This document shows, piece after piece, positions 24,747 to 41,439 of a stretch of 64,000 nucleotides of DNA. The notes beneath the pieces are model-generated. The model ran no database searches and was not told the origin of the DNA. It saw nothing but the letters and a program-made list of their open reading frames with translations. The DNA is taken from NCBI RefSeq assembly GCF_001999965.1, contig NZ_CP019646.1, positions 3,534,001-3,598,000 on the forward strand, read 5' to 3'. The DNA is from Limihaloglobus sulfuriphilus. GTDB lineage: Bacteria; Planctomycetota; Phycisphaerae; Sedimentisphaerales; Sedimentisphaeraceae. Both the position numbers and the translations under genes were made by a program. The first letter of the stretch is position 1. Every line of letters starts with the position of its first letter.

Positions 24747-24817
24747 CTGGGGAACCTGGATTCGAACCAAGACTAACTGATCCAGAGTCAGTTGTGCTGC
24801 CGTTACACTATTCCCCA
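24747..24817 (-). tRNA. tRNA-Gln (anticodon CTG)
   Basis: The minus strand folds to a cloverleaf: acceptor arms TGGGGAA and TTCCCCA, a D arm containing AGTGTAACGGCAGCA, and anticodon stem ACTGA/TCAGT with the seven-base loop CTCTGGA (CTG at positions 34-36). The T loop is GGTTCGAATCC. The discriminator is G, and CCA is not encoded. Confidence 0.93.
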
Positions 24818-25639: not shown

Positions 25640-25643
25640 AGAA

Positions 25644-26900
25644 ATACTTTTTTCTTCACTATCTTCTTCAAGTGTGCCAGGTTCGGGCCTATTCGGTTTG
25701 GATCTGGCCCGAGAATGACCCGGCAGTTTGCCGGTTATCTATAAAACTTAAAAAGTTAATACTGATTATTAGAAGACAACAATACAAACAACTTCTTCAT
25801 CTTCTTCTTCAAAACGTGCCGGGGCTGTTCTCAGCACCGGCATTGAAAACAGACGCGAGGGGGGCCTGAAAATAAAATCAGGCTCCCGCGCGATACGATG
25901 AATGACAGGGTTTGTTGACAAGATACTTTTTTCTTCACTATCTTCTTCAAGTGTGCCAGGTTCGGGCCTATTCGGTTTGGATCTGGCCCGAGAATAACCC
26001 GGCAGTTTGCCGGTTATCTATAAAACTTAAAAAGTTAATACTGATTATTAGAAGACAACAATACAAACAACTTCTTCATCTTCTTCTTCAAAACGTGCCG
26101 GGGCTGTTCTCAGCACCGGCATTGAAAACAGACGCGAGGGGGGCCTGAAAATAAAATCAGGCTCCCGCGCGATACGATGAATGACAGGGTTTGTTGACAA
26201 GATACTTTTTTCTTCACTATCTTCTTCAAGTGTGCCAGGTTCGGGCCTAATCGGTTTGGATCTGGCCCGAGAATGACCCGGCAGTTTGCCGGTTATCTAT
26301 AAATAGATTTACAAGTTAATATAAAATGAAGACCACTAACACAACTTCTTTCTCCTTTCACAAGGAAAGTTAAGCGAGGCCTTGAGGGCCCAAATTCAAG
26401 GCCTCCTGACTTTCTTTAAAAGAATTAGAGGACATTAACAGGACAATTAAATGATTTCTGTTAAAGGTTTCTGTTTCTTAGGGTTTAAGAAAATGCGTGT
26501 TAAATATAAAATACTTTTTTCTTCACTATCTTCTTCAAGTGTGCCAGGTTCGGGCCTATTCGGTTTGGATCTGGCCCGAGAATAACCCGGCCTTTAGCCG
26601 GTTATCTATAAATAGATTTACAAGTTAATATAAAATGAAGACCACTAACACAACTTCTTTCTCCTTTCACAAGGAAAGTTAAGTGAGGCCTTGAGGGCCC
26701 AAATTCAAGGCCTCCTGACTTTCTTTAAAAGAATTAGAGAGTCATTACAGGATAGATAAATAAATCCTGTTAATCGTTTCTGTTTCTTAGGGTTAAAGAA
26801 AATTCGTGTTAAATATAAAATACTTTTTTCTTCACTATCTTCTTCAAGTGTGCCAGGTTCGGGCCTATTCGGTTTGGATCTGGCCCGATAACAAACAGCC
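25644..26900 (+). repeat. Five-copy array of hairpin-rich modules
   Basis: A core of about 85 bases, beginning ATACTTTTTTCTTCACTATC and containing the stem TCGGGCC / GGCCCGA, starts at 25644, 25923, 26202, 26511 and 26820. Copies 1-3 repeat with a 279-base period and copies 3-5 with a 309-base period, because the segment after the core is of two types. Type 1 has stems CCGGC/GCCGG, GCCGG/CCGGC and GCCTGA/TCAGGC. Type 2 has GAGGCCTTG/CAAGGCCTC. Copies are nearly identical, which indicates recent duplication or ongoing correction. Frames of 65-78 codons inside the units are not convincing genes. The array ends 110 bases before the first PEP-CTERM gene. Confidence 0.9.
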
Positions 26901-27011
26901 GTGGATTGGCTGTAAGGATAAATTTAAGGCATGGCCGAAAGGGTGCGTAGCTCCGAGGTCAAAAAAGCAAAAAAAAAGCAAAAGGCAAAACTCAAAAGAA
27001 AGGAATTAGTC

Positions 27012-27407
27012 ATGAAGAGGCAAATAATTCTAGCAATGACATTAGTTCTGGCTGCAAGCACATTTGCAGGTAACGGAATCAGGCTGGCGGACTGGAACGC
27101 AGGAGTCCAGGAAAGCCACAGGCTTATGGAAGTAGGCGAGTACATCCCAAGCGTAACCGAAAAAGAGGATATGACAATCAGTTATGTACGGGTTTACAAG
27201 TGCGACTACGAGGAAGAACTTAACCTCAAGGAAGACCTCGTAAGCACAACACTGTTTGAAACAGCAAGTGCACCGGATCTCGGTTCCAGCACCACAGCAG
27301 TAAACGAGCCGGTAGTAGATGGAAATTACACTCAGGTTCCCGAACCTGCCACAATGGCCCTGCTGGGTCTTGGCGGAGTTCTCCTGAGACGCCGCAAAAG
27401 GAGTTAA
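27012..27407 (+). CDS. PEP-CTERM protein 1, 131 aa
   Basis: An exported surface protein expected to be processed by an exosortase. A signal peptide covers residues 1-19 (MKRQIILAMTLVLAASTFA). The mature part is short and rich in Glu/Asp, with no recognised domain. The PEP-CTERM sorting tail covers residues about 109-131: the VPEPATM motif, a hydrophobic stretch (ALLGLGGVLL) and a basic end RRRKRS. The ATG at 27012 follows AAAGGA; the open frame upstream (from 26931) is Lys-rich and is not a signal peptide. First of thirteen such genes in a row. No exosortase gene is in this window. Confidence 0.85.
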   Translation: MKRQIILAMTLVLAASTFAGNGIRLADWNAGVQESHRLMEVGEYIPSVTEKEDMTISYVRVYKCDYEEELNLKEDLVSTTLFETASAPDLGSSTTAVNEPVVDGNYTQVPEPATMALLGLGGVLLRRRKRS

Positions 27408-27426
27408 CACGGTAGAAGGAATCCCC

Positions 27427-27457
27427 CGGGCCGGTTTCAACAAGACTGGCCGGCCCG
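27427..27457. other. GC-rich hairpin after PEP-CTERM gene 1
   Basis: CGGGCCGG at 27427-27434 pairs perfectly with CCGGCCCG at 27450-27457. There is no T run, so its use as a terminator is uncertain. Between it and 27845 the DNA holds small hairpins, including a GCTGGAAGC-type dispersed repeat near 27740, and no gene. Confidence 0.6.
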
Positions 27458-27844
27458 AGAGTTCCTCGCCACTCCGGCAACCCCCACCGCTCAAACCGAG
27501 CAATTATAAGCTAAACTAACGAACCCGTTCTTTACGACAAGTGAATAGCGTCTCTTCCCGGTAAGACAAAAGAATAAGAGATGGCAAAGTTTGTATAGAT
27601 GTTGATGATATGCTTAAATTTGCCTTTTAAATCCTTTCTTTTGCCTTGCAGGGTGGTCGCCTGAGGTTTATCCACCGCAGGCACCCCCTGTAATTTTGCT
27701 CTAAAGTAGTGCAAGCGTCCCCGCTTGTCAGTGTCAGGCTGGAAGCCTAACCTACTAAATGTCAACCGAGGACGGTTGACCTACGTGAGCGGCAAAAGAA
27801 ACAGAGACACTGTAACGGGAATTACAGATGTCCATACAAAGGAT

Positions 27845-28527
27845 AAAAAGGCTGATTGTAAGCCGGGATAAGAGATAATTAAAACAGCGGTTGGGAAACC
27901 GCTTTCAAATGGGAATAAAACGGGAAAGCTCTATGGCTTATCAAGCCTGGGCATATGTCGGACTTCAATGTACCTTCTGATTGCATTGGGAAAAAGAGAT
28001 AAGATTCATCAACCGTTCCGGGCTCGGGAAAGTCCGGGACGGGTTAGAATCTTAAAAGATTGTTTTTGAAAAGTGAATACTGTACTTCTCTGATAGAAAA
28101 GAACAGACGATTGTGTAAAACGCCTGAGGTATCGGGAAATACCATCGGGCGGCGATAGTACCGGATGAAGAAAAGCCGGTAATGTTTGAAAAAGTATATG
28201 CTGTGCTCTTCTGATTAGCAGCAGGGAAAAAGAGATTAGATTCTAATCCGGCCCGGGTTCGGGAAAATGCGGGCCGGTAACGAATCTCAAAATTAAAATT
28301 GAATAAACTTTAGATTCAGCTGATCATTCTGGATCAGAGAACGGCTTATGCCGCACGGCTTTTCGGGTGTTGAAAAGCAGGGAAGGCTTTTTAATAAAGG
28401 CGGCATAAAAAACTGTTCTTAAAGTTACGTGAGTGCAATAAATGGGTGTTCACAACTTTGATCGTCGCAGGGGTAAAACTATGCGGCTAAAAAAGAGCTG
28501 CCTGTTTATGCGGGCAGCTCTTTTTTT
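27845..28527 (+). ncRNA. Candidate large structured RNA with tandem modules
   Basis: There is no frame of 60 codons or more on either strand between about 27770 and 28890. The stretch contains at least three similar modules: 27850-27903, 27966-28054 and 28200-28287. Each has a first hairpin with GATT in the loop, then a G/A-rich linker (GGGAAAAAGAGATAAGATT-like), then a second hairpin. Stems differ in sequence but keep pairing: CAATG/CATTG against GCTG/CAGC in hairpin 1, and TAAGATTC/GAATCTTA against AGATTC/GAATCT closing hairpin 2. The second-hairpin loops share CGGGAAA. A nine-base stem, TTATGCCGC (28346) / GCGGCATAA (28400), and several nested hairpins follow, and a strong terminator ends the stretch. 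No known RNA family was recognised. The 5' end is a guess. Confidence 0.5.
28489..28527 (+). terminator. Intrinsic terminator ending the structured region
   Basis: GAGCTGCC pairs with GGCAGCTC, flanked by A6 upstream and T7 downstream. It reads as a terminator on both strands. Confidence 0.92.
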
Positions 28528-28591
28528 AATTACGAATTACGAATTACGAAAATCCGCAGATTATCGCAGATTTTAAAAAGTTAAGATTTAT

Positions 28592-28647
28592 GTAGGACAG
28601 GCATCCCTGCCTGTCGCTATTGTGTCGGCCAGGGATGGCCGACCTAC
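28592..28647. repeat. Dispersed GTAGG...CCTAC double-hairpin repeat
   Basis: GTAGG and CCTAC enclose two hairpins, GACAGGC/GCCTGTC and GTCGGCC/GGCCGAC. Copies also lie at 29811-29866, 32131-32186 and 37587-37641. In the last one the second stem is GTCGGGCT/AGCCCGAC, a paired change. A GAGAAAATTC palindrome follows at 28666-28687. The remainder of 28528-28889 has ATTACGA tandem repeats, a CCGCAGATT repeat and a GCAGC/GCTGC hairpin just before the next gene. Confidence 0.85.
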
Positions 28648-28889
28648 GCAGAATAAAGATTTGTAGAGAAAATTCACGAATTTTCTCAGATTTAGATAAA
28701 GCTCTTTGATAAGTTAAAAATTGAAAAGTTAAAGATAATTACCTTGGTAAATTTTCTGAATGTGATGAAAAGTACAGATGAAAATCGGTTCAGAGATTTA
28801 TCAAACGACTGCCGGCGGATGCAGCGTGTTGCTGCGTTTTTATAAACAGCCGGATGTCGCGATAAATTTATTTCACGGAGGATTGAAAA

Positions 28890-29723
28890 ATGAAAACTAA
28901 ATTAAGTGTAATTGTAATGGCTCTGGCGATTGTTTCGTCTCAGTGCTCAGCTATTGTCGTTGACGGCAGAGCAGATGGCAGGGCAGAGGGTTATAACTTT
29001 CAGGCATTTATCCCTTCTGTAGCCGCTGCTCCGGCAAATGTCTTTGCGGAGATGTATATCGGCCAGCAGGGAAGCAGCCTGTACCTGGCGTTTGTGATAC
29101 CTTTGAACTATACAGACAACACGTATGGCGCCAATACTGACCCAAGCTGGCCCCAGGGCAAAGGGCACCTGTTTAATGACCTGATCCAATCCGACCAGAT
29201 GGTTCTGATGGGAGATTTCAACGGCCAGTCAATTGATACGACGATTGACTATCTCGAAGAAAAAGAGCTTGGCGTTGGAACGGATATCTACGAGGCTCCG
29301 ATCATAGAGAACAGCGGTAACGAAGTTGCCGGTTTTGTAGTCGAGGCAGCCACCTCGCTTGAGTACAACCTCGAAGAGATACTCCAGCTTACAGAGCCGC
29401 TGCCGGTGATTGAAGGAAAGCCTAATAGCTCGGATCAGCCGGACTCGCCGTCAGACCCGGCCTCAATAGGCTGGATAATGCGAAACGTCTATGAGATGCG
29501 GATTGAGCTCGGCTCAGATGAGCTCGTGATCGACGAGTATGAGGGATTTATAAACGGCCTCTCCCTGTATGTCGGCGAGCTTCACGCTTCCCCGTCGAAA
29601 GACGCTTCAGACTGGAACAACCAGCCGCCAAACGATGGTTGGGTGCCGCTGAATCCGGTACCGGAACCGGCAACGGCTATAATCTTCGCTATCGGCGGTT
29701 TGCTGATACGTAGGAAGAATTAG
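28890..29723 (+). CDS. PEP-CTERM protein 2, 277 aa
   Basis: A signal peptide of about 22 residues (MKTKLSVIVMALAIVSSQCS) is followed by a roughly 230-residue body (VVDGRADGRAEGYNF..., YLAFVIPLNYTDNTYG) and a PEP-CTERM tail at residues about 257-277: VPEPATAIIFAIGG then RRKN. The body has the look of a beta-rich extracellular domain of the carbohydrate-binding type, but no family is claimed. The ribosome-binding site CACGGAGG lies nine bases before the ATG. The 3' end is nearly identical in DNA to those of the next two genes. Confidence 0.85.
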   Translation: MKTKLSVIVMALAIVSSQCSAIVVDGRADGRAEGYNFQAFIPSVAAAPANVFAEMYIGQQGSSLYLAFVIPLNYTDNTYGANTDPSWPQGKGHLFNDLIQSDQMVLMGDFNGQSIDTTIDYLEEKELGVGTDIYEAPIIENSGNEVAGFVVEAATSLEYNLEEILQLTEPLPVIEGKPNSSDQPDSPSDPASIGWIMRNVYEMRIELGSDELVIDEYEGFINGLSLYVGELHASPSKDASDWNNQPPNDGWVPLNPVPEPATAIIFAIGGLLIRRKN

Positions 29724-30030
29724 GAATTACGAATTACGAATTGAAAAATAAGAAATAAGATAATCCGCAGATTACGCAGATTACCGCAGATTTTAAAAGT
29801 TAAGATTTATGTAGGACAGGCATCCCTGCCTGTCGCCTTTGTGTCGGCCAGGCATGGCCGACCTACGAAGAATAACGAATTGTAGAGAAAATTCACGAAT
29901 TTTCTCAGATTGAAAATTAAATAAACCAGAATTAATTTACCATGAAGAGCATGAAGGACATTAAGTAAATAAGAATTAAAAACTTCAATACCTTCAATAA
30001 CTTCATGGTTAAGAAATTAAAAAGTAAACA
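29724..30030. repeat. Repeat-filled spacer between PEP-CTERM genes 2 and 3
   Basis: In order it holds ATTACGA tandem repeats (29729-29750), CCGCAGATT repeats (29764-29790), the GTAGG double hairpin (29811-29866), a GAGAAAATTC palindrome (29885-29906) and the ACCATGAAG/CTTCATGGT repeat (29939-30008). There is no gene. Confidence 0.85.
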
Positions 30031-30109
30031 AGTTTTTCACGGTGATGGGATTGCCGATGAAAAGGTGAATTTTAACAATCGAGCATAAGCTCATAATAGG
30101 GAAATTTTT
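30031..30109 (+). promoter_or_regulatory. Conserved leader, copy 1
   Basis: CACGGTGATGGGATTGCCG with complementary outer arms (TTTTC / GAAAA) is followed by AATTTTAACAA, a small hairpin (GAGC / GCTC) and the ribosome-binding site. Copies 2 and 3 precede the genes at 32564 and 36450. Here GG and GC are ten bases apart, which also fits a weak -24/-12 promoter. Confidence 0.6.
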
Positions 30110-30790
30110 ATGAAAAAGGCATTACTTGTATTGACAGCATTGACAGTTTGTTCACTGAACGCGGCTTTAATCACTCAGACGAAGACGTTTTCAGGTAAAC
30201 CGAATTATACTAAATATCTGACTTATGACCAGTTTGATGATGACGATGGAACTCTAAACTCTATTGAAGTCATTTTCACCCTCAACGTTGATGGTGGAAT
30301 ATTGACTGTAGATAATGACAGCGATAATCATGCAGATGGAACTTTTGAGTTTGGAGCCAAAGGGGTTATTAATTCTGAAGATGTTATTCTATCTTCTGGT
30401 TTTGTACATGTAACAGGTGAGCTCGAATCTGTAAACTCTGGTAGCTTTTCTTTGGAAGCCAACGAAGGAGATGGCACTGGAGATTATAGTTCGGCTGCAC
30501 CCGATGGCATGAGTTATGACGGAGAGGCTGCAACAGATTCCGGTTCGGGCTTGGTTGCAGTTGGTGCATGGTCAATGGGGACAACCGGTTACCTGGGCAC
30601 ATCAACTTACGATATAGAGGTTGACATAACACAATGGCAGGATTACGAAGGTGATGGTGGGATTGAGCTGGGCTTTACTCCGGTTGACGCAGACGGTGAA
30701 GTAACTGTTAAATACGACTACACTGTACCCGAGCCGGCAACAGCAATAATCTTCGCTATCGGCGGTATGCTGATACGCAGGAAGAATTAA
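30110..30790 (+). CDS. PEP-CTERM protein 3, 226 aa
   Basis: A signal peptide (MKKALLVLTALTVCSLNAA) leads a body that looks like the spectrin-like choice-of-anchor domains of PEP-CTERM proteins: LITQTKTFSGKPNYTKYLTY, then QFDDDDGTLNSIEVIFTLNV. The body is acidic and Gly-rich. The sorting tail lies at residues about 206-226 (VPEPATAIIFAIGG, RRKN). GGGAAATT precedes the ATG at the end of the conserved leader. It is surface-exposed or released into the matrix after exosortase processing; binding partners are unknown. Confidence 0.85.
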   Translation: MKKALLVLTALTVCSLNAALITQTKTFSGKPNYTKYLTYDQFDDDDGTLNSIEVIFTLNVDGGILTVDNDSDNHADGTFEFGAKGVINSEDVILSSGFVHVTGELESVNSGSFSLEANEGDGTGDYSSAAPDGMSYDGEAATDSGSGLVAVGAWSMGTTGYLGTSTYDIEVDITQWQDYEGDGGIELGFTPVDADGEVTVKYDYTVPEPATAIIFAIGGMLIRRKN

Positions 30791-31108
30791 GAATTGTAGA
30801 GAAAATTCACGAATTTTCTAAATTAAAAAGTAAATAGACGGGTAATCCTGTCAAAAAGAATTTAAATATGAGATTTATCTCCGTGATCTCCGTGTCCTCC
30901 GTGGTAAAAAAAGTTAAACCACAGAGTACACAGAGGGCACTGAGAAAAAAAAGAACAAACTTTTACCATGAAGAGCATGAAGGACATGAAGTAAATAAGA
31001 ATTAAAAACTTCATTAACTTAATGGTTGAGAATTAAGAATTTAACGAATCAGCGAAAATCTGCGAAATCTGCGGATATAAAAAGTTAAGAGTTTAAACAA
31101 CTAAACAA
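30791..31108. repeat. Repeat-filled spacer between PEP-CTERM genes 3 and 4
   Basis: It contains a GAGAAAATTC palindrome (30799-30820, last pair broken), the CTCCGTG...CACAGAG repeat (about 30880-30945), the ACCATGAAG/CTTCATGGT repeat (about 30963-31027) and a GCGAAAATCTGCG repeat. There is no gene and no clear promoter. Confidence 0.8.
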
Positions 31109-32029
31109 ATGAATAGACAAACAATGATTAAGAAATTGAATACATTCACAGTTTTGCTAACTGTTCTGGCCTGCGGGTATGCCTTCGGGGCACCCTATGT
31201 TGATGAAGCCTTCACGGGAACAACCGCACCTGACTGGACTTTTGTAACCGGCCAGGGCGACGGGCCCTTCCTTACAGCCACCGACACCGCAAAAACCGGC
31301 GACACTGACGGCGATGGCTGGCTGCGGCTTACAAAAGACCTGGACAATCAATCGTCCTTTGTCTATTACAACAACGCCATCTCAACAAGCCAGGGCATGA
31401 TTTTCACGTTTGACTTTGTTATCTGGGGCGGCAGCTCCGGTTTGGGAGACGGTCTCACGCTGGCTATTTTTGACGCAGACGTTACAGCTGATGCCGGCGG
31501 ATACGGCGGGTCTCTGGGGTATGCCCAGCGAGATGGAGGAATTGACGGGCTCGCCGGAGCGGTTGCGGGTTTTGGTTTTGACGTATTCGGCAACTTTTCC
31601 AACCCGACCGAAGGCCGCGAAGGAGGCCCCGGACAGCGGCCCGATGCAATCGCAGTAAGGGGCTCTATGGGTGATACCCGCAGCGACGGCTACGAGTATG
31701 TGACAGGTACCGATACTTTAGAGGATTTTGCTACATCAAGCGCTAATTCAAGAGACGATGCAGTTATACATACAGTTAAGATAACGATCACAACAGATAA
31801 AGAACTTACAATTGAATGGAAGCCCGAAAATGACGAGTGGGCGACGCTTATAGATGCGTACCAGTGTACTTTGGACTGCCCGGATCAGGTTAAGTTCGGA
31901 TACACCGCGGGTACGGGAAGTGCGACTGCAAACCATGAGATCAGAAACCTCTCGGTTACCGCAGTCCCGGAACCGGCAACGGCGATAATCTTCGCTATCG
32001 GCGGTATGCTGATACGCAGGAAGAAATAA
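31109..32029 (+). CDS. PEP-CTERM protein 4 with L-type lectin-like domain, 306 aa
   Basis: A signal peptide runs to about residue 28 (MIKKLNTFTVLLTVLACGYAFG). Residues about 30-280 resemble a concanavalin A/L-type lectin fold: WLRLTKD, FTFDFVIWGGSSGLGDGLTLAIFD at about 95-118, GLAGAVAGFGFDVFGN and KLTIEW-like late strands. Such domains bind carbohydrate and suggest an adhesin or glycan-binding role. The PEP-CTERM tail is at residues about 286-306 (VPEPATAIIFAIGG, RRKK). The start could also be the ATG five codons downstream (31124), which gives a more usual signal peptide. Confidence 0.85.
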   Translation: MNRQTMIKKLNTFTVLLTVLACGYAFGAPYVDEAFTGTTAPDWTFVTGQGDGPFLTATDTAKTGDTDGDGWLRLTKDLDNQSSFVYYNNAISTSQGMIFTFDFVIWGGSSGLGDGLTLAIFDADVTADAGGYGGSLGYAQRDGGIDGLAGAVAGFGFDVFGNFSNPTEGREGGPGQRPDAIAVRGSMGDTRSDGYEYVTGTDTLEDFATSSANSRDDAVIHTVKITITTDKELTIEWKPENDEWATLIDAYQCTLDCPDQVKFGYTAGTGSATANHEIRNLSVTAVPEPATAIIFAIGGMLIRRKK

Positions 32030-32477
32030 AAATTACGAATTACGAATTACGAATTACGAATTGAAAAATAAGAAATAAGATAATCCGCAGATTACGCAGA
32101 TTACCGCAGATTTTAAAAGTTAAGATTTATGTAGGACAGGCATCCCTGCCTGTCGCCTTTGTGTCGGCCAGGGATGGCCGACCTACGAAGAATTAAGAAT
32201 TGTAGAGAAAATTCACGAATTTTCTCAGATTGAAAATTAAATAAACCAGAATTAATTTACCATGAAGAGCATGAAGGACATGAAGTAAATAAACTAAAAA
32301 CTTCAATAACTTCAATAACTTCATGGTTGAGAATTAAGAATTTAAAAAATCCGCGAAAATCTGCGTAATCTGCGGATATAAAAAGTAAATAGTTATCTTA
32401 CAGGCACGGCCGGCGGCAGAGCAGCAGAAAACTAATGCCTATTGCCTATTGCCTAATGCCTGTAAAAAAAGTAAATA
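32030..32477. repeat. Repeat-filled spacer between PEP-CTERM genes 4 and 5
   Basis: The same series as after gene 2: ATTACGA tandem repeats (32031-32060), CCGCAGATT repeats, the GTAGG double hairpin (32131-32186), a GAGAAAATTC palindrome (32205-32226) and the ACCATGAAG repeat (about 32260-32327). Then come a TGCCTATTGCC short tandem repeat (about 32435-32460) and the leader. From the end of the PEP tail to about 32300 it is almost identical to 29700-30000. Confidence 0.85.
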
Positions 32478-32563
32478 AGTTTTCCACGGTGAATGGGATT
32501 GCCGCGGAAAAGGGAAAATTTTAACAAATGGGCAAACGGCCCAAAATTCGAAAGGATTTTATT
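32478..32563 (+). promoter_or_regulatory. Conserved leader, copy 2
   Basis: TTTTCC / GGAAAA arms enclose CACGGTGAATGGGATTGCCG. AATTTTAACAA and a second hairpin, GGGC / GCCC, follow, then GAAAGGA. The second stem differs from copy 1 (GAGC/GCTC) and copy 3 (CGGGC/GCCCG) with pairing kept. Confidence 0.6.
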
Positions 32564-33109
32564 ATGAAAAAGACACTCACAGCACTTACAATTTTATTAG
32601 CCGTATCAGCGGCACAAGCGGGGTTTCTGTACTGGAGCTTTACAGGCCCGGACGGAGGCGGAGACTACACGGTTGACCTTAACTGGGATACCACAGCACC
32701 GGCCGAGTGGGATTATGTAGAGTACTCAGCATTAAACGATAATCTTACGGAATTTGCCATAAAAATTTCAACTGAAAGCAGTGGTGTCACTCTGAGTAAT
32801 TTTGTTTTTGGGGATTTCGATACAACATGGGCAGTAAATTGGGACGGTGAAAAAACGTCTTTTGGCACGGCGTTAGATGCAAACGGTGTAAATGGTATGC
32901 TGATCCAGTTTAAATACACTGGTCCTGATAATGTTACTCTTAACGTAGAAGGTATTGATACTACCGGAAGTGCTATTGCAGATTCTGATGAAAACATAGT
33001 TTACTTTGGCAATTCTGCCGCAGGCAGCGTTGTAGTCCCCGAGCCGGCAACGATGGTTATCTTTGGCCTTGGCGGGCTTGTGCTGAATGTAACAAGACGC
33101 AAAGCGTAA
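32564..33109 (+). CDS. PEP-CTERM protein 5, 181 aa
   Basis: A signal peptide (MKKTLTALTILLAVSAAQA) precedes a compact body of about 130 residues (YWSFTGPDGGGDYTVDLNWD, AEWDYVEYSALNDNLTEFAI) of beta character, with no named family recognised. The tail at residues about 158-181 is of the second type in this array: PEPATMVIFGLGG, then LVLNVTRRKA, with Asn-Val-Thr before the basic end. The ATG at 32564 follows GAAAGGA. An in-frame ATG at 32528 lies in the leader hairpin and is rejected. Confidence 0.85.
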   Translation: MKKTLTALTILLAVSAAQAGFLYWSFTGPDGGGDYTVDLNWDTTAPAEWDYVEYSALNDNLTEFAIKISTESSGVTLSNFVFGDFDTTWAVNWDGEKTSFGTALDANGVNGMLIQFKYTGPDNVTLNVEGIDTTGSAIADSDENIVYFGNSAAGSVVVPEPATMVIFGLGGLVLNVTRRKA

Positions 33110-33483
33110 TCAATTACGAATTACGAGTTACGAATTGAAATGCAAATAACCCGTCACTTGTTTCACTTTTCTAATATTTAGAAAAACAAGTGACGGGTAA
33201 TCCTGTCAAAAAGAATTTAAATATGAGATTTATCTCCGTGATCTCCGTGTCCTCCGTGGTAAAAAAAAGTTAAACCACAGAGTACACAGAGGGCACTGAG
33301 AAAAAAAGAACAAACTTTTACCATGAAGAGCATGAAGGGCATGAAGTAAATAAAATAAAAACTTCAATATCTTCAATATCTTCAATATCTTCATGGTTGA
33401 AATTAGAAACTAAGAATTACGAATTGAAATACAAAGAGACAAAATTTTATTTAATTTCAAGAAAGGAAAGTGAGCTAACCAGG
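33110..33483. repeat. Repeat-filled spacer between PEP-CTERM genes 5 and 6
   Basis: It holds ATTACGA repeats (33112-33135), a long hairpin at 33149-33198 (arms ACCCGTCACTTGTTT and matching complement), the CTCCGTG/CACAGAG repeat (about 33228-33300) and the ACCATGAAG/CTTCATGGT repeat (about 33320-33395). The CCCGTCACTTGT hairpin recurs at 39622-39671 and 40032-40079. Confidence 0.85.
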
Positions 33484-34152
33484 ATGAAAATGAATTTAAC
33501 GACAATGTGTTTAGCAGTAGTAATAGCAATCTGTTCGGCAGCGCTGGCAAACCCCGATTATACAATCACCCTTACCGCAATGGCAGATGGCAGCGGTTTG
33601 GGTTATAATTCAGGTTCTACTTATGATTTTTCTTTCGTTCTAAATGGTTCGAGAACAGAGTCGAATAATGATACCTTTGATGATACGTACAACTCGTGGT
33701 TTTCAGCAAATACAAGTGATGACCCTTTATATCTCGACATTTATGGTTCAGGCTTATCAGGAACTTACCAAAGGCCAAATGGCGCTTCTAACGATCCGCA
33801 AGAAAATGTTATTGTTAACAGTAATGGCCTCGATATAAGTGTAAATGCATATGAAACTGATGACTTAAATCTAACCACGCTTGATGGCAACAACATTGAT
33901 CCCATTATTACTGATTACTTTTTGTTATCCGGAGTAACATTAGATTATTCAGACACCTCTTACGTATCTCCCGAAACGTACTTTGCTGATTACCTTGGGC
34001 AGTATAGCGTTTCCGGCAGCCCAACTCTAACGTTGATGACCACAGGACCGGATGCATATTTTGATATCAATTCTGTAACCATCACCCCCGAGCCGGCAAC
34101 GGCGATAATCTTCGGCCTTGGCGGACTCTTTATCCGCCGCAGACGAACATAA
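33484..34152 (+). CDS. PEP-CTERM protein 6, 222 aa
   Basis: A signal peptide (MNLTTMCLAVVIAICSAALA) is followed by NPDYTITLTAMADGSGLGYN and a Ser/Asn/Asp-rich body of unknown fold. The tail at residues about 202-222 reads PEPATAIIFGLGG, ending RRRRT. The ATG at 33484 has an AGG directly in front and AAAGGAAA further upstream. The longer frame from 33397 only translates repeat sequence. Its N-terminal 20 residues resemble those of gene 8 (MKMNVITICLAVATML), so the pair shares both ends but not the middle. Confidence 0.85.
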   Translation: MKMNLTTMCLAVVIAICSAALANPDYTITLTAMADGSGLGYNSGSTYDFSFVLNGSRTESNNDTFDDTYNSWFSANTSDDPLYLDIYGSGLSGTYQRPNGASNDPQENVIVNSNGLDISVNAYETDDLNLTTLDGNNIDPIITDYFLLSGVTLDYSDTSYVSPETYFADYLGQYSVSGSPTLTLMTTGPDAYFDINSVTITPEPATAIIFGLGGLFIRRRRT

Positions 34153-34183
34153 AACTTAAAACTTTTTTACAAGGAGAACAAAA

Positions 34184-35071
34184 ATGATGTATTATTTAAG
34201 GAATTTGATGTGTTTGTCTGTGCTAATCGCTTTGCTTCTTGCAGCCCCCGCCTTCAGTGCGTACACGTTCGAAGGCAGCAATGCAATGAAAGACTGGGAC
34301 GGAGATAATGAGACTAGTCCTTATGCAATAGATGATTGGTCTGATGTTGACTCAGACGACGAATTGCAGATTGGATACAACAGCTGGGGCAAACTTACCG
34401 GCGACGGCGGTTCTGGAACGGTTTATAATACTAATGTAGGCAATAACGGCGAGGGTGAAATGGTTCTTGCTGGAAGCAGTACAGATTTTACAAACACTAA
34501 CATTTTTGCCGTGGGTAAGTTTGATAGCGGAGAGTTATCTGTCTCAAACGGAGCGTCTCTTAGCGTTACTGAGGGCTTGCAGGTAGGATATCAGTCTCAG
34601 GGAATTATGACCGTTCACGGCGGAGACGTGTTGGCTGGAAGAATTCGTATGAATGATTCTTTCAATGCTGAAGGCAGCAGCCTTACAATCACAGGCAGCG
34701 GTACTGTATCAGCATCTGCGATTTATCATGATAACAATTCCTCCTCTATGACCATAGAAGACGGAATAGTTGATGCAGAAAATATCTATGCCTATGGAGG
34801 GACATTTGCAATTAACGTAGGCCTTTCCGGGACTTTAGCACTTGGCTGGGGTTTCGAGGATAATATGAGCAGCTTTCTGGTGAATATTACTGCCTTCAAT
34901 GATTCAACCATAAACCTCAATCTCTGGGATGGCTCGGATTATGTAGATTATTCTGCGCTCACTGAAGACGTGGATTATCAGGTAGAAGACGGTGAGCTTA
35001 CAATCGTCCCCGAGCCGGCAACGGCGATAATCTTCGGTCTTGGCGGGCTGATGCTTCGCAGGAAGAAATAG
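34184..35071 (+). CDS. PEP-CTERM protein 7 with autotransporter-like beta repeats, 295 aa
   Basis: The signal peptide (MCLSVLIALLLAAPAFSA) ends near residue 26. The body repeats short Gly/Ser-rich strands (GELSVSNGASLSVTEGLQVGYQSQGIM at about 120-145, SSLTITGSGTVSASAIYHDN), like the stacked beta repeats of autotransporter passenger domains. A PEP-CTERM tail lies at residues about 275-295 (VPEPATAIIFGLGG, RRKK). It starts only 31 bases after gene 6 with an AAGGAG site, so genes 6 and 7 are the one likely two-gene unit in the array. Confidence 0.85.
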   Translation: MMYYLRNLMCLSVLIALLLAAPAFSAYTFEGSNAMKDWDGDNETSPYAIDDWSDVDSDDELQIGYNSWGKLTGDGGSGTVYNTNVGNNGEGEMVLAGSSTDFTNTNIFAVGKFDSGELSVSNGASLSVTEGLQVGYQSQGIMTVHGGDVLAGRIRMNDSFNAEGSSLTITGSGTVSASAIYHDNNSSSMTIEDGIVDAENIYAYGGTFAINVGLSGTLALGWGFEDNMSSFLVNITAFNDSTINLNLWDGSDYVDYSALTEDVDYQVEDGELTIVPEPATAIIFGLGGLMLRRKK

Positions 35072-35322
35072 AAATTACGAATTACGAATTACGAATTGAA
35101 AAAATAAGAAATAAGATAATCCGCAGATTACGCAGATCATCGCAGATTTAAAAACTAAATAAACCAGAATTCATTTACCATGAAGAGCATGAAGGACATG
35201 AAGTAAATAAAATAAAAACTTCAATAACTTCATGGTAGAAATTAGGAATTAGGAATTAAGAATTGAAATACAAAGAGACAAAATTTTTATTAAATTTCAA
35301 CAAAGAAAGAGAGCAAACAAAG
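35072..35322. repeat. Repeat-filled spacer between PEP-CTERM genes 7 and 8
   Basis: ATTACGA tandem repeats, CCGCAGATT repeats and the ACCATGAAG/CTTCATGGT repeat (35178-35236) occur in this order. The first 140 bases match the spacer after gene 8 almost base for base. Confidence 0.8.
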
Positions 35323-36108
35323 ATGAAAATGAATGTAATTACAATATGCTTGGCAGTAGCAACGATGTTAACGGGTGTATGCGTCGCCGCGAATACTTCC
35401 ATAGATTTTGAAGGTGCTGCTGTTGGTACCAACAACGCGGCAGACCAGATTGGCGGGCGTTTAACAACCTGGGGTAACAATCCCGGGGGCACTTACGATG
35501 CAAACATTGCTGATGACCCTGCAGCGGGCAGTTCAGGCGAGACTATGTATCTGGCCAATCAGGATGATATGTTACTTTATCTTGGTTCTTTAACGAATAT
35601 ACAAGAGATTGATTGGACTACAGCCGCGACAACCGCTACCGGCACAGTTAATATCAGCTATGATATATATGCAGGAAATGGATATGCCTATTGGAATGTA
35701 CAATCATCAAACTTAAACTCTAACGATTGGTCTATTGAAATTGAATACGGTAAGGACGGAACTGGTAATACAAATAAGAGCGGTATCTATTATTATATTG
35801 GTGATATTAATAATTATACAGAATCTGAAAATGTTGTCTTTAATCAATGGGTTACTGTTGAGCAGGTTTTGAATATTGATGATGGAACATACACCATGAA
35901 ACTTGATGACGTCGAGGTTCTCTCTTTAGGTTCAAGCGATGGTTTCACCTATTATGACGGTCTCCTGGGGATAGATTTTTATGGTTACGATGCTGACAGT
36001 GATTACTATGTGGACAACATCGCTTTCAATTTAGAAACCACGGTTCCAGAGCCAATGACAATGGCGTTTCTCGGCCTTGGCGGACTGATGCTTCGCAGGA
36101 AGAAATAA
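35323..36108 (+). CDS. PEP-CTERM protein 8, 261 aa
   Basis: A signal peptide (MKMNVITICLAVATMLTGVCVA) is followed by a roughly 215-residue body with a LamG/concanavalin-like flavour (IDFEGAAVGT, WSIEIEYGKDG, NQWVTVEQVLNIDDGTYTMK, then YVDNIAF). The tail (about 241-261) is VPEPMTMAFLGLGG, RRKK, with Met for the usual Ala. The ATG at 35323 is used because the signal peptide begins there; the frame upstream of it is Lys-rich repeat translation. It would be exported and processed like its neighbours. Confidence 0.85.
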   Translation: MKMNVITICLAVATMLTGVCVAANTSIDFEGAAVGTNNAADQIGGRLTTWGNNPGGTYDANIADDPAAGSSGETMYLANQDDMLLYLGSLTNIQEIDWTTAATTATGTVNISYDIYAGNGYAYWNVQSSNLNSNDWSIEIEYGKDGTGNTNKSGIYYYIGDINNYTESENVVFNQWVTVEQVLNIDDGTYTMKLDDVEVLSLGSSDGFTYYDGLLGIDFYGYDADSDYYVDNIAFNLETTVPEPMTMAFLGLGGLMLRRKK

Positions 36109-36360
36109 AAATTACGAATTACGAATTACGAATTGAAAAAATAAGAAATAAGATAATCCGCAGATTACGCAGATCATCGCAGATTTAAAAACTAAATAAA
36201 CCAGAATTCATTTACCATGAAGAGCATGAAGGACATGAAGTAAATAAAATAAAAAAACTTCAATAACTTCAATATCTTCATGGTTGAGAATTAGGAATTT
36301 AACGAATCCGCGAAAATCTGCGAAATCTGCGGATTAAAAAAAGTAAATAACGTATAAAGT
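36109..36360. repeat. Repeat-filled spacer between PEP-CTERM genes 8 and 9
   Basis: It repeats the spacer seen after gene 7 (ATTACGA, CCGCAGATT, ACCATGAAG/CTTCATGGT at 36215-36283), then adds a GCGAAAATCTGCG repeat before the leader. Confidence 0.8.
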
Positions 36361-36449
36361 AAGTTTTCCACGGTGAATGGGATTGCCGCGGAAAAGGGAA
36401 AATTTAACAAGCGGGCGAAACAAGCCCGGAATTCGAAAGGAATTTAATT
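36361..36449 (+). promoter_or_regulatory. Conserved leader, copy 3
   Basis: It is nearly identical to copy 2 in the first hairpin (TTTTCC / GGAAAA around CACGGTGAATGGGATTGCCG). The second hairpin is CGGGC / GCCCG, followed by GAAAGGA and the ATG at 36450. Confidence 0.6.
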
Positions 36450-37121
36450 ATGAAAAAAACAAACATACTATTACTGATTTTTGCTGCCCTGGCGGCGGTT
36501 AGTGTCAACGCTGCTTTGATCACAGAGCAGAATTTTGACGATGCGGGATGGGATTTTACCGCGGTACCGGATGAGAGTATCGGCCATGAAGAAATTTCAG
36601 GATTTTTCTTCATGAATTGGGGCGTTACGGATCTTGTACCTATAGATTCTGATGCCACTAATACCTTAACCGCCGCAGATGACAGTGATTTCTGGGGTAT
36701 AAGGAAACTTGCAGATTATGCAGAATATACCGCTGGGGTAACAGTAAATCCTACCGATTTCTATTTAGAGTTTGACAGTGTGGATATCAGCGCATACACA
36801 GGTGTTGAGATTACATTTGACTATGCAATAGCAGAAGATTACGCGGACGGATATATGGCTTATCAGGTAAGCCTTGACGGCGGTCAGACTTGGGAAAACG
36901 CTGTAGAAGTATCTATTGCAACCGGTGCCTGGACAACGGAAACAATATCAATCGCAGACAGCGTTGATGATGTAGCCTTGCGGCTAATCTCTGATGATAC
37001 TCTCAGCTATCCCGGTGCTGCCGGCTGGGACAATGTAGAGCTGATCCCCGAGCCTGCAACGATGGTAATCTTCGGCCTTGGCGGACTGATTCTAAGTGCT
37101 ACAAGACGCAGAAATGCTTAA
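36450..37121 (+). CDS. PEP-CTERM protein 9, 223 aa
   Basis: A signal peptide (MKKTNILLLIFAALAAVSVNA) precedes a jelly-roll-like body: LITEQNFDDAGWDFTAVPDE, YLEFDSVDISAYTGVEITFD, AYQVSLDGGQTWENAVEVS and GAAGWDNVELI. This resembles a MAM-like or choice-of-anchor carbohydrate-binding domain. The tail at residues about 199-223 is IPEPATMVIFGLGG, then SATRRRNA. GAAAGGA precedes the ATG. It is expressed from the conserved leader, like genes 3 and 5. Confidence 0.85.
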   Translation: MKKTNILLLIFAALAAVSVNAALITEQNFDDAGWDFTAVPDESIGHEEISGFFFMNWGVTDLVPIDSDATNTLTAADDSDFWGIRKLADYAEYTAGVTVNPTDFYLEFDSVDISAYTGVEITFDYAIAEDYADGYMAYQVSLDGGQTWENAVEVSIATGAWTTETISIADSVDDVALRLISDDTLSYPGAAGWDNVELIPEPATMVIFGLGGLILSATRRRNA

Positions 37122-37181
37122 TCAATTACGAATTACGAATTAGGGATTACGAATATAACAACTATGAGCGAAGCGAAGTTC

Positions 37182-37223
37182 TTCGTCACTTGTTGGCAAA
37201 GCCAAAAAAGAACAAGTGACGAA
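37182..37223. repeat. Variant CGTCACTTGTT hairpin
   Basis: TTCGTCACTTGTT pairs with AACAAGTGACGAA across a 16-base loop. It is a relative of the CCCGTCACTTGT hairpins at 33149, 39622 and 40032, but with a different loop and outer bases. Confidence 0.75.
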
Positions 37224-37265
37224 TGCCGCAATTCTTAATTCTACATTCCTAATTCCTAATTAATT

Positions 37266-37496
37266 ATAAAATAACGATCTGCCTGCGGTTTGAACCGCCG
37301 CGACAAAAAGCCTCACTAAGCAGCATTTGGGCAATGTATTTAAAGCTGGTGATAAGCTGCGGCGGGATTTGAGCCCCGGCAGACGCTCTTGTGAAAGTAA
37401 GTCCTTATGGGCTTAAAAGAAGTATTACGTAAGAAGCCTTGAGGGGCTGGTTTTAAAGCCTCTCTGGTTTTCTTGCATGTCAGAAAGAAACGTTAG
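37266..37496 (+). ncRNA. Duplicated 231-nt structured element, copy A
   Basis: Copy B is at 40104-40335; only about three positions differ in 231. Nested pairings are possible: TCTGCC/GGCAGA outermost, CCGCCGC/GCGGCGG within, and GCAGC/GCTGC inside that. AAGTCC/GGGCTT follows, and a terminator-like stem GAGGGGCT/AGCCTCTC leads to TGGTTTTCTT. No frame of useful length is present. A regulatory RNA, a riboswitch-like leader or a mobile repeat are all possible. The stretch 37497-37742 holds one palindrome, one GTAGG repeat and no gene. Confidence 0.5.
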
Positions 37497-37742: not shown

Positions 37743-38789
37743 TTGAGAACACGAATAAGCAGCAGACTCTCTAAAGCGGCTATTGTAATGCTGGTATTTT
37801 CCGCCGGCGCATTTGCCGTGGATATTGTTAATTACGGCCCGTTTGCGTGCCATTTTTATAACCAGAACGATGATGGCGGCTACGGTTATGTCGGAGCGGC
37901 GGACTGGACGGATACCCAGAAACAGGACGTTGAGGCGGGCATAATGACCTGGGCCTCGAACATTGCTAATACCGCTCCGCGTCAGTTAAACCTGCATATT
38001 TACTGGCAGAACCTTGAAGGTGCACAACTCGGCGGTGCCGGCAGCAGCGTTTATTATAACGGCACGTACAGTGCCAGCATGACCGAATATGTCTGGCGCC
38101 ATGAGAATAATTATACAATCAGCGGGCCTGACGCTCTGATTGTATACGATATTGACGCGGCTTCAGATTACAAACCGGAGGACCAACCTGATTATGTCTC
38201 GCCGATTGCCGGCTGGAATTTCGGCTCTGAGCAGCCTGCGGATGACGAGATAGATTTTCGGGGCACAGTTACCCATGAACTTGGTCATTTAGTGGGCTTT
38301 TCATCTTCTTATAATCTGAATCTTAACCAGTTTGGAACCGCTGGTGACAGTGAAAGCTGGCAGCAGCGGGGGCTTAGCGCCTGGGATTTGAATTTTGTTG
38401 ACGACGACGGCGAAAGGCCGCAGGTAGCTGTAAGCTGGGACGAGCAGACCAATGTAGATGTTCAGGCCGACGAAGGAGATTCTACGAGCCTCTACTGGGA
38501 CGGAGAGAATGCGGTTGCCGCAAACGATGGTGAGCTTGTTCAGATATTCGCCCCGACTGAATATCTCCCCGGCTCGAGCCTTTCGCACCTGAACTATGAC
38601 GCCGGATCAGTGTATCCGGGCAGCCTGATGAGTCCATATGTAAGTACAGGGATCTCGCCTCGCGAGCCTAACGAAATCGAATGGGCAATGATGGCAGATA
38701 TGGGCTGGACAATAGTCCCCGAGCCGGCGACGATGATAATTCTGGGTATTGGCGGGCTTGTGCTGAATGTAACAAGACGCAGAGCTTAA
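37743..38789 (+). CDS. PEP-CTERM protein 10, zinc metalloprotease-like, 348 aa
   Basis: A secreted, surface-sorted zincin. The signal peptide runs to about residue 27 (AAIVMLVFSAGAFA). The body has YGPFACHFYNQNDDGG, an ADWTDTQKQDVEAGI helix and the zinc motif THELGHLVGFS, with His178, Glu179 and His182. A third ligand is expected shortly downstream. The PEP-CTERM tail lies at residues about 325-348 (VPEPATMIILGIGG, NVTRRRA). The start is TTG at 37743 after a GAAAGAGATTGA leader; no ATG fits the signal peptide. It is the only array member with a recognisable catalytic motif. Confidence 0.85.
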   Translation: MRTRISSRLSKAAIVMLVFSAGAFAVDIVNYGPFACHFYNQNDDGGYGYVGAADWTDTQKQDVEAGIMTWASNIANTAPRQLNLHIYWQNLEGAQLGGAGSSVYYNGTYSASMTEYVWRHENNYTISGPDALIVYDIDAASDYKPEDQPDYVSPIAGWNFGSEQPADDEIDFRGTVTHELGHLVGFSSSYNLNLNQFGTAGDSESWQQRGLSAWDLNFVDDDGERPQVAVSWDEQTNVDVQADEGDSTSLYWDGENAVAANDGELVQIFAPTEYLPGSSLSHLNYDAGSVYPGSLMSPYVSTGISPREPNEIEWAMMADMGWTIVPEPATMIILGIGGLVLNVTRRRA

Positions 38790-39005
38790 TCAATTACGAA
38801 TTACGAATTGAAATGCAAATAGACATGATTAACAAGATAAACAAGATTTTAATAAATAAAAACTAATCCTGTAAATCCTGTCCGCTAAAATTAAGAATAA
38901 TAAGCAGGGCAAGCTTCCAGCTTGCCATTACCAAATATCAGGCAGGATGCCTGACATGCGAAAACCAGAAAATGTAAACAGAAACTATTTGAAGGAAAAC
39001 GACCT
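38790..39005. repeat. Short spacer between PEP-CTERM genes 10 and 11
   Basis: It contains ATTACGA repeats, an ATTAACAAGATAAACAAGAT repeat and a GGCAAGC/GCTTGCC hairpin (about 38908-38926), then GAAGGAAAAC before the next ATG. Confidence 0.7.
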
Positions 39006-39572
39006 ATGAGAAAAACACTTTTTATCGCAGTGGCAATTTTAATCGCGGCAGCAACGGCGCAATCTGCGGTAGTATGCTCCAACATAGACAATACTACTGA
39101 CGTCTGGGCTAACACTTGGGGATTTACGGTAACTCAGCAGTTCACGGTTGATTCCAACCCGGAAACAATCAAAACTGTTAGAGTTGCATTTGATATCCAT
39201 GGCACAGCGGCATCTTTCTCTTCCGAGGGCGGAACCTTGTCTATTTATGCTAATGACCGTTCAACAAAGCTCGGTGATTTTACAACAGGTGACACTATTT
39301 ACAACGGGACGAACGAATTTGTCAACAATTCCGGTGTTGCTCTATCAGCAAATACAAGTTACTGGGTATTTGTTTCAGGTTTTTACGCAGGTGTTGACTT
39401 AACAAACAACGCCTCACAGGCTGGCTGGGCGATCAGAGACAAGATAGACTACTCGTCAGACCCTTTCCTCGGTGCAATGAAGATTGAGCTGGACACCGTT
39501 CCTGAGCCGGCGACGATGCTTATCCTGGGTCTTGGCGGGCTTGTGCTGAATGTAACAAGACGCAGAGCTTAA
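39006..39572 (+). CDS. PEP-CTERM protein 11, choice-of-anchor R-like, 188 aa
   Basis: A signal peptide (MRKTLFIAVAILIAAATAQS) precedes a body of about 140 residues with CSNIDNTTDVWANTWGFTVT, QQFTVDSNPETIKTVRV, LSIYANDRSTKLGDF and LSANTSYWVFVSG. This is the pattern of the choice-of-anchor R domain found in PEP-CTERM proteins. The tail at residues about 165-188 is VPEPATMLILGLGG followed by NVTRRRA, almost identical in DNA to that of gene 10. GAAGGAAAAC lies just before the start. Confidence 0.85.
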   Translation: MRKTLFIAVAILIAAATAQSAVVCSNIDNTTDVWANTWGFTVTQQFTVDSNPETIKTVRVAFDIHGTAASFSSEGGTLSIYANDRSTKLGDFTTGDTIYNGTNEFVNNSGVALSANTSYWVFVSGFYAGVDLTNNASQAGWAIRDKIDYSSDPFLGAMKIELDTVPEPATMLILGLGGLVLNVTRRRA

Positions 39573-40103
39573 TCAATTACGAATTAGGAATTACGAATTG
39601 AAATACAAATAGACATGATTAACCCGTCACTTGTTTCACTTTTCTAATATTTAGAAAAACAAGTGACGGGTAATCCTGTCAAAAAAAATTAGTAATTAAG
39701 AATTGTAGAGAAAATTCACGAATTTTCTAAATTAAAAAGTAAATAGACCCGATTGACAAGATAAGAATATTTGAGATTTGAAATTTTAGATTACAAATTT
39801 AATCCTGTAAATCCTGTCAAAAAGAATTAAATTTGAGATTTATCTCTGTGATCTCCGTGTCCTCCGTGGTAAAAAAAGTTAAACCACAGAGTACACAGAG
39901 GGCACTGAGAAAAAAAGAACAAACTTTTACCATGAAGAGCATGAAGGGCATGAAGTAAATAAAATAAAAACTTCAATAACTTCATGGTTGGAAATTAGAA
40001 ATTAAGAATTACGAATTTAAAATACAAATAGCCCGTCACTTGTTTCACTTTTCTAATATTTAGAAAAACAAGTGACGGGTAATCCTGTCCAATAGATTTG
40101 AAA
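39573..40103. repeat. Repeat-filled spacer after PEP-CTERM gene 11
   Basis: Order: ATTACGA repeats, the CCCGTCACTTGT hairpin (39622-39671), a GAGAAAATTC palindrome (39708-39729), the CTCCGTG/CACAGAG repeat (about 39838-39910), the ACCATGAAG/CTTCATGGT repeat (about 39929-39988) and a second CCCGTCACTTGT hairpin (40032-40079). There is no gene. Confidence 0.85.
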
Positions 40104-40596: not shown

Positions 40597-40643
40597 GATA
40601 CATAAGAGATTGTAAAAGTTTTTTCGAAAGGAAAAGTGAGAAA

Positions 40644-41228
40644 ATGAGAAATTTATTGATTGTGTTGATTATTGTCTGCCTTACTATCAGCGCGGGCGCG
40701 GGGTTAATCCTTAACGGTTCATTTGAAGCTCCAGTTATAGCAAATAACAGCTTTACGCAGTTTGATGAAGGTGAAACTATTGATGACGCGGGCGAATGGC
40801 TGGTAATCTCGGGTGAGGTTGACCTTGTAAGACAGGGAACCATTCACGATGGATCCCAGCGGCTCAGCCTCAACGGCTTAAATCTTGGCGGCAAGATAGG
40901 CCAGGAGATAGCAACCGTTGAAAACCAAATCTACAAAGTAACCTACTGGTCTTTGGACAGAGACTACGCTTTCACAGTTGGCGTTGCTGAAACTTCCGAC
41001 GGCAACTATACCGAATTCGAAAATGTTGATGTTACCTCATCCAGTGACTGGACTTACAAAGAATTTGAGTTTACCGCTACCGGTGCTGCGACCTGGGTGA
41101 TTTTTGAAAGCAATGTCAGCGGCGATACAGGTGCCGGCATAGACCTGGTTGATGTAGAGCTGGTTCCCGAGCCGGCAACGATGCTGATATTTGCTCTTGG
41201 CGGCCTTCTGCTTCGCAGGAAGAAATAA
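40644..41228 (+). CDS. PEP-CTERM protein 12, DUF642/choice-of-anchor C-like, 194 aa
   Basis: A signal peptide (MRNLLIVLIIVCLTISAGAG) is followed by LILNGSFEAPV, the start motif of DUF642-type galactose-binding-like domains, with IYKVTYWSLDRDYAFTVGVA and WVIFESNVSGDTGAGIDLVD near the end of the fold. The tail at residues about 174-194 is VPEPATMLIFALGG, RRKK. GAAAGGAAAAG precedes the ATG. It shares its domain plan with gene 13, which follows in tandem, so these two are true paralogues rather than merely tail-sharing genes. Confidence 0.87.
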   Translation: MRNLLIVLIIVCLTISAGAGLILNGSFEAPVIANNSFTQFDEGETIDDAGEWLVISGEVDLVRQGTIHDGSQRLSLNGLNLGGKIGQEIATVENQIYKVTYWSLDRDYAFTVGVAETSDGNYTEFENVDVTSSSDWTYKEFEFTATGAATWVIFESNVSGDTGAGIDLVDVELVPEPATMLIFALGGLLLRRKK

Positions 41229-41439
41229 GAATTGTAGAGAAAATTCACGAATTTTCTAAATTTAAAAGTAAATAGACAGGATTAACAGGATAAACAAGAT
41301 AAGAATATTTGAGATTTGAAATTTCAGATTGCAGATTTAATCCTGTTAATAAATTTAAACCTTCGTTGAAATGCAGTAAACGCGGGAAAGAGATTGATAT
41401 TGTGCACCGCAGAGGGTTAAAAAAGAGGGAAAAATACTG

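Follow-up and report, generated by a model that had tools for sequence, protein, structure and literature searches.

How does one sorting tail come to stand on many different proteins? In a single genome, PEP-CTERM tails are carried by dozens of proteins that are otherwise unrelated, and the route of a tail onto a new protein has been unclear. The question is raised by a cluster of 13 PEP-CTERM genes, all in the same direction, that spans positions 26931 to 42045 (by the list of open reading frames, ORFs) of a 64,000-nucleotide stretch of Limihaloglobus sulfuriphilus DNA (the window; G000:C1:3534001-3598000, where G000 is the complete 3.87 Mb genome). The tails of this cluster have very probably been exchanged by recombination, with the bodies of the genes replaced between them, a verdict that we reach because one case involving G002, the complete genome of a family member from a different genus, shows both edges of the exchanged piece, and because the pattern recurs in that second genus. 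Genes are numbered 1-13 in their order along the cluster, which for genes 2, 3, 4, 7, 8, 10, and 11 apparently matches the numbering of an earlier note on this DNA; coordinates are those of the window, on the forward strand unless marked otherwise.

By sequence, all 13 genes end in a PEP motif followed by a hydrophobic stretch and a basic end, and the N termini of the cluster ORFs are hydrophobic by eye. PF07589 at E≤0.001 detects 7 of the 13, with genes 2, 3, 4, 6, 7, and 8 under the cut-off; TIGR02595, run on ten genes (5, 6, and 10 left out), gives 15.6 bits for gene 3 against a cut-off of 16, 16.0 for gene 2, and scores above the cut-off for the rest. Gene 2 (28890..29723, tail from the PEP at 29661 to the stop) encodes a PEP-CTERM protein, gene 3 (30110..30790) has a choice-of-anchor E body (NF033208, 4.6e-9), gene 4 (31109..32029) an L-type lectin-like body (PF18483, 8.3e-13, below that model's cut-off), gene 7 (34184..35071) a T5SS/PEP-CTERM-repeat body (below cut-off), gene 11 a choice-of-anchor R body, and genes 12 and 13 choice-of-anchor C bodies (gene 12 below cut-off). 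The bodies of genes 1-11 have no mutual similarity (blastp, 1e-3), and only genes 12 and 13 are related. Body GC ranges from 0.38 to 0.52, a spread suggestive of mixed origin. Matches of Shiga toxin B models to residues 1-43 of gene 3 (NCBIfam, E 0.02-0.13) lie far under the cut-offs in the signal-peptide region and were taken as chance.

Counted from the first P of PEP, the tail DNA of genes 2 and 4 matches at 46 of 48 bases, that of genes 3 and 4 at 44, and those of genes 2 and 3 and of genes 10 and 11 at 43, with the bases upstream of the tails in all four pairs near chance level. The earlier note had described genes 2, 3, and 4 as sharing almost the same DNA from the PEP codons behind unrelated coding parts, and both halves of that description hold. 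Where the two tails encode the same residue, the codon is identical at 14/15 sites in pair 2/4, 11/15 in 3/4, 11/15 in 2/3, and 11/13 in 10/11. Over a comparison set of 66 PEP-CTERM genes (61 HMM matches, minus one at 839117 whose called ORF has no PEP, plus six cluster genes added by hand), this codon identity is 0.560 within the cluster (78 pairs), 0.394 when cluster genes are paired with the genome's remaining PEP-CTERM genes (689 pairs), and 0.354 when both genes lie outside the cluster (1378 pairs). Tested singly against 0.394, pair 2/4 gives p 2e-5 and the other pairs 1e-3 to 8e-3. Judged from these sequences, the likeness of the cluster tails is greater than a conserved motif would lead one to expect.

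Selection and codon bias acting on a required sorting signal might keep the tails alike without any exchange of DNA. The motif is functionally required, an exosortase is present (a single PF09721 match in G000, as in G002), and amino acid conservation covers part of the likeness, background pairs reaching 27-28.5 of the 48 bases. However, the synonymous codon agreement is far above that of the genome's other PEP-CTERM tails, the identity extends into noncoding spacer, distant homologous pairs show no extra conservation of tail codons, and the tail sequence of G002 is unused in its congener G004. Spacer and synonymous identity refute this explanation for pair 2/4 and for the G002 cluster L254, and as a general account we consider it extremely unlikely.

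The extent of the shared DNA was assessed by aligning the interval against itself (E≤1e-4, 107 alignments). The tail and spacer of gene 2 (29658..30031) align with those of gene 4 (31964..32348) over 388 columns at 91%, in a block that starts at the V codon before PEP and ends 308/319 nt beyond the stop, so that the earlier note was right to carry the identity into the spacer but stopped it too soon, at about 250 bases. Pairs 2/3 and 3/4 have only the tail plus 5 nt in common, because gene 3, whose tail begins at 30725, lacks the first part of the spacer of genes 2 and 4. Its spacer groups instead with the spacers downstream of genes 5 and 11 (210 columns, 92%; 206 columns, 93%), so that the histories of tail and spacer are in part independent. 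The tail and spacer of gene 5 (33035..33217) align with those of gene 11 (39498..39690; 193 columns, 88%), and those of gene 12 (41163..41280) resemble 30725-30842 after gene 3 (118 nt, 84%). The same pattern had been claimed for genes 10 and 11 and for genes 7 and 8. It is present in the former, where the tail of gene 10 with 44 nt of spacer (38715..38833) resembles that of gene 11, the common part running about 45-50 nt beyond the tail; genes 7 and 8 follow it in part, having in common the second tail half (37-38 nt at the 3' end of the gene) and 179/191 nt of spacer (35034..35250 with 36071..36299; 229 columns, 93%), whereas their first tail halves differ. A single alignment of the 107 intrudes more than 20 nt into a coding body (36 nt of gene 6, probably owing to an ORF start called too early), and identity does not fade smoothly into the bodies.

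Since genes 7 and 8 are alike only in the second half of the tail, some breakpoints must lie inside it. We located these by the maximum chi-square test (5000 permutations) in five triplets picked after inspection, for which the p-values are guides. The tail of gene 6 (33397..34152) is a mosaic, its 5' half like genes 4 and 7 and its 3' half like G002 (gene 7 versus G002, p 0.0002; gene 4 versus G002, p 0.0006). Gene 8 agrees with gene 3646186 of the same genome at the first 10 informative sites of its tail and with gene 7 at the next 9 (p 0.0002); the tail of gene 7 switches between genes 4 and 8 (p 0.0016), and that of gene 3 between genes 4 and 12 (p 0.019). The sharp boundary at PEP that had been expected is thus seen in genes 2, 3, and 4 and at the right edge of gene 7, but in genes 6, 7, and 8 the break falls within the tail itself. 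Identity is thus patchy, and its breakpoints fall within stretches of homology, which is the mark of gene conversion or homologous recombination.

Both edges of an exchange can be followed at gene 7. The region 34145-35023 is 95.7% identical in DNA (841/879 nt) to positions 7667-8537 of G002 L254, which hold gene E of that cluster, and the protein bodies are 93.5% identical; for scale, the MnmG proteins of the two genomes are 66% identical. This identity ends at the PEP codons, beyond which only 31/48 tail bases agree (Fisher p 1.2e-10). At same-residue positions, the codon is identical at 235/243 sites in the body versus 5/10 in the tail (p 3.4e-5), which is not the equal divergence of tail and body that the earlier note had named as contrary to its proposal; its idea that recombination at the sorting tail replaces the body is borne out. 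The tail of gene 7 (35009-35071) is window-like, not G002-like. On the other side, the tail of gene 6 begins window-like, turns G002-like in its second half, and is followed by a G002-like AACTTAAAACTT spacer. The exchanged cassette (34120..35023) consists of the end of the gene 6 tail, the spacer, and the gene 7 body, its left edge being the break that follows nt 33 in the tail of gene 6. In the simplest account, a piece of ∼0.9 kb, roughly 34120-35023, was imported, and each flanking tail holds one of its two breakpoints. We infer import into the G000 lineage rather than export because G002 has two diverged copies and a matching spacer style across its cluster.

The same case bears on tandem duplication of whole genes followed by fast divergence of the bodies. 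Duplicates do exist, since genes 12 and 13 are related and the G002 bodies A/E, B/D, and C/F are duplicates. Nevertheless, the bodies in the window represent several distinct families (lectin-like, choice-of-anchor E, R, and C, T5SS repeat), and duplication is refuted for gene 7, where the body is near-unchanged from G002 yet the tail is different; overall, we regard it as very unlikely.

A search of the cluster DNA against 161 genomes of the order (E≤1e-20) gave matches, besides G000, only in G002 and G004. The orthologue of gene 4 in G004 shares 57.5% of amino acids over 280 residues of the body and 23/48 bases of the tail, versus 46/48 for the unrelated genes 2 and 4. The tails cluster by genome and position, not by body, as the earlier note had anticipated. 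In the L254 cluster of G002, all 12 unrelated-body pairs reach at least 41/48, in blocks that begin at VPEP, these pairs resting on six of the eight genes (the filter missed two) and three body families; a further G002 pair, at L258, also does so (1/1). A query tail from G002 finds eight tails within 8 kb and one ∼160 kb off, at 97-100%, and its best matches elsewhere are 84% in the congeneric G004 and 81% in G000 (gene 6). The distant copy is a tail alone, the spacer not being carried along. Of pairs from different loci of one genome, 6/330 reach 41/48, each involving this remote copy. The mnmG flanks of nine relatives hold a few isolated PEP-CTERM ORFs and no comparable cluster.

We also compared tails with bodies in 15 same-genome pairs whose bodies are related. 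Tail codons are more conserved than body codons in two tandem G002 pairs (p 0.019 and 0.007), and the excess is near-significant (p about 0.06) in genes 12/13 and in the tandem G000 pair 3666773/3667677. In the latter the bodies are 40% alike in protein, and 95% identity extends over 198 nt that comprise the last 39 nt of the body before PEP, the tail, and downstream DNA ending in a terminator-like hairpin. In a distant homologous pair, codon identity is 0.456 in the body and 0.417 in the tail; because such pairs show no tail excess, tail codons are not inherently frozen.

These data suggest that the PEP-CTERM tail acts as a recombination handle in a cluster of exosortase-type surface-protein genes. 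Repeat-rich spacers aside, the tails are the sole homology among neighboring genes, and homologous recombination between them, by gene conversion or crossover and probably RecA-dependent, would have two effects. A tail would be copied from gene to gene, often with adjoining spacer, so that tails become alike within the cluster; and a foreign body lying between tails would replace, or enter between, two resident tails. Either conversion or crossover would fit these events, one-way and reciprocal exchange not being distinguishable in them. The spacer elements are a separate matter, which may help recombination by providing extra homology, but tails are homogenized without them too (3666773/3667677 and G002).

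A site-specific or integron-like system that inserts body cassettes at the tail would account for the layout of the exchanged unit, which runs from the end of one tail to the start of the next much as a cassette does. The breakpoints, however, vary in position, lying at PEP (genes 2/3/4 and the right edge of gene 7), in mid-tail (genes 6 and 8), or upstream of PEP (the 3666773 pair), and no recombinase occurs among the cluster ORFs, although no genome-wide search was made. Such a system seems to us highly improbable.

Several points weigh against recombination between tails. A tail of 48 nt with imperfect homology is short for RecA-type recombination. It is also short for statistics: the single-pair tests are weak, pair 2/4 alone is striking, and the pairs are not independent. 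The excess of tail codon conservation is absent from the other 11 of the 15 related-body pairs, including all distant ones, and is not universal in tandem pairs. Finally, among surveyed clusters chosen from among the matches listed for PEP-CTERM profiles in six relatives (four of the twenty stretches hold one gene and serve as background only), 9 of 11 have no such pairs, with 0/58 unrelated-body pairs at 41/48 or above (four clusters in G005, two in G021, and one each in G002, G004, and G025), so that tail sharing is not general to PEP-CTERM clusters.

The earlier note had seen a downstream module kept with the tail. The spacer is indeed shared in pairs, but it is not specific to PEP-CTERM genes, being made of dispersed palindromic repeats that also stand at other loci: for 315 nt taken from the spacer of gene 2, the genome holds 88 matches, and many of these are where there is no PEP-CTERM gene, among them a pilin-like cluster near 3.05 Mb. 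One component is a GTAG-tagged palindrome of the repetitive extragenic palindrome (REP) type at 29811..29834, a class described in PMC3733652. Further GTAG palindromes lie at 28592, 32131, and 37587 (+) and at 28624 and 32163 (-), and 28592(+)/28624(-) and 32131(+)/32163(-) form opposite-oriented pairs of tag and short palindrome. The genome has five Y1_Tnp genes, and the REP of the window was not seen in the parts of their flanks inspected by eye (all five genes). In a second class of element, the hairpin arms iterate a word of 8-11 nt (CCGCAGATT, CATGAAG, or CTCCGTG/CACAGAG). ATGAAG-word hairpins lie at 32259..32327 and start near 30966, 35178, 36215, and 39930, and CTCCGTG/CACAGAG-word hairpins (family D17) lie at 33233..33301 and within 30854-30951 and 39819-39916. 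The composite element at 32085..32375 has CCGCAGATT words at 32085-32102 and their inverted partner at 32358-32375, with REPs and the ATGAAG element nested within. Weak Rfam matches on the palindromes (24000-45000) were taken as chance, a transfer RNA (tRNA) being the only match above cut-off.

Might these elements move with the 3' end of the adjacent gene, pasting tail and spacer behind other bodies? The spacers are full of dispersed palindromic elements, often inside the shared blocks. On the other hand, the homogenized tails of G002 have spacers of simple AACTTA words, its ∼160-kb copy is tail only, the 3666773/3667677 block ends in its terminator-like hairpin with no such element, and every pasting would require an in-frame junction at PEP. 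We judge such transduction very unlikely.

The iterated-word hairpins extend beyond this cluster. They occur in the window spacers between 28555 and 41300, at L050 7000-8580, and at L217, L218, L224-L253, and L281-L299, in several phyla. In a species-level genome collection, 114 stretches contain the exact 26-nt form CCATGAAGAGCATGAAGGACATGAAG of the ATGAAG-word element, and their record titles (80 of the 114) include Methylobacter, Desulfobacter, Kiritimatiellae, Lentisphaerae, Verrucomicrobia, Muiribacteriota, and Hydrogenedentota. A GxxExxY gene was detected by tblastn at 7/80 of these loci, six within 100 nt of the word, compared with 0/21 loci near mnmG of relatives and 0/48 of the genome's own PEP loci. 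Inverted matches between the two flanks (score of at least 16) were found at 13/30 GxxExxY loci of G000 and its relatives and at 11/18 loci of other genomes, the latter picked for carrying the word; controls gave 0/600 and 1/360 for shuffled flanks and 0/11 for mnmG. Pairs of flanks from different loci matched in 67/870 and 17/306 cases, a rate raised because words recur; the words vary between loci yet tend to agree within a locus, as terminal inverted repeats would.

On these patterns, a GxxExxY gene with inverted iterated-word ends reads as a small mobile element, of which the gene-less hairpins of the window would be nonautonomous copies; the window itself yielded no GxxExxY gene. GxxExxY proteins (TIGR04256/PF13366) resemble the window in that its spacer words form the inverted ends of their genes in many genomes. 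This looks like an undescribed family of minimal mobile elements, an association not found in the literature searched, where the GxxExxY passages that came up were not about repeats. If true, the link would account for a large class of intergenic repeats in many phyla. A wider reading, which we hold tentatively and place a little short of an even chance, is that tails are transferable docking ends, that bodies circulate between genera as tail-to-tail cassettes and recombine into resident clusters, the tails being homogenized locally as the bodies turn over, and that the spacers are built by undescribed word-hairpin mobile elements, linked to GxxExxY (PD-(D/E)XK) and present in several phyla.

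Likeness between cluster genes is also seen at their 5' ends. The DNA upstream of genes 3, 5, and 9 (30019-30121, 32462-32575, and 36343-36461) is 77-86% alike, perhaps a common promoter or leader; it matches no Rfam family in a scan of 24000-45000. Genes 6 and 8 are alike at 33317-33523 and 35174-35362 (81% over 208 columns), across the upstream spacer and first signal-peptide codons. Exchange of DNA in the cluster may thus occur at the 5' end as well. Elsewhere in G000, one PEP-CTERM gene is present in three near-identical copies (C1:2851663, 3319536, and 3636194; bodies 97-99%), possibly carried on a mobile element. At the edge of the cluster, five highly similar tandem units at 25641-26894, spaced by 279 or 309 nt and all containing a GC-rich inverted repeat (GGTTCGGGCC...GGCCCGA), look noncoding and are perhaps an array of small RNA genes or terminators. 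Between them and an aroE-like gene lies the tRNA gene (24747-24817); tRNA genes are common integration points.

Stated in testable form, the finding is that recombination spreads and homogenizes tails and that bodies are replaceable between them across genera. We found no literature joining PEP-CTERM with gene conversion or choice-of-anchor with PEP-CTERM; for PEP-CTERM, recombination, and exosortase together, tail exchange is not the topic of any paper retrieved as far as titles and the opening of abstracts go, and a text search for the spacer words returned unrelated papers only. Short targeting ends on unrelated bodies are known from type III effectors, through terminal reassortment, and from Gram-positive surface proteins with their conserved LPXTG ends; these are other secretion systems than PEP-CTERM. 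Tail exchange is a variant of such modular recombination of gene ends, and new as such. In Rhs genes, PMC2935791 describes C-terminal displacement by homologous recombination with acquired alternatives, which changes the C-terminal tip and leaves the core in place. Conserved and variable parts of one gene evolve separately in both systems, but here it is the 20-residue C-terminal tail that is kept and nearly the whole protein that is replaced. The GTAG-tagged REPs treated with RAYT transposases in PMC3733652 are GTAGG tags with a palindrome, often in inverted pairs and mostly downstream of genes, Planctomycetes included; unlike that case, GTAG REPs make up only part of the window spacer. The PEP-CTERM/exosortase system itself, as described by Haft et al. 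(2006, PMC1569441), has the same tail, in which a PEP motif is followed by a hydrophobic stretch and a basic end, on proteins with nothing else in common. Tails there cluster by species, for which rapid expansion of paralogous families was suggested; if tail exchange is correct, this clustering would be partly concerted evolution. That work rests on protein trees, and its main text, so far as searched, does not contain "recombin," whereas in the present DNA comparison tails are seen to be exchanged separately from their bodies.

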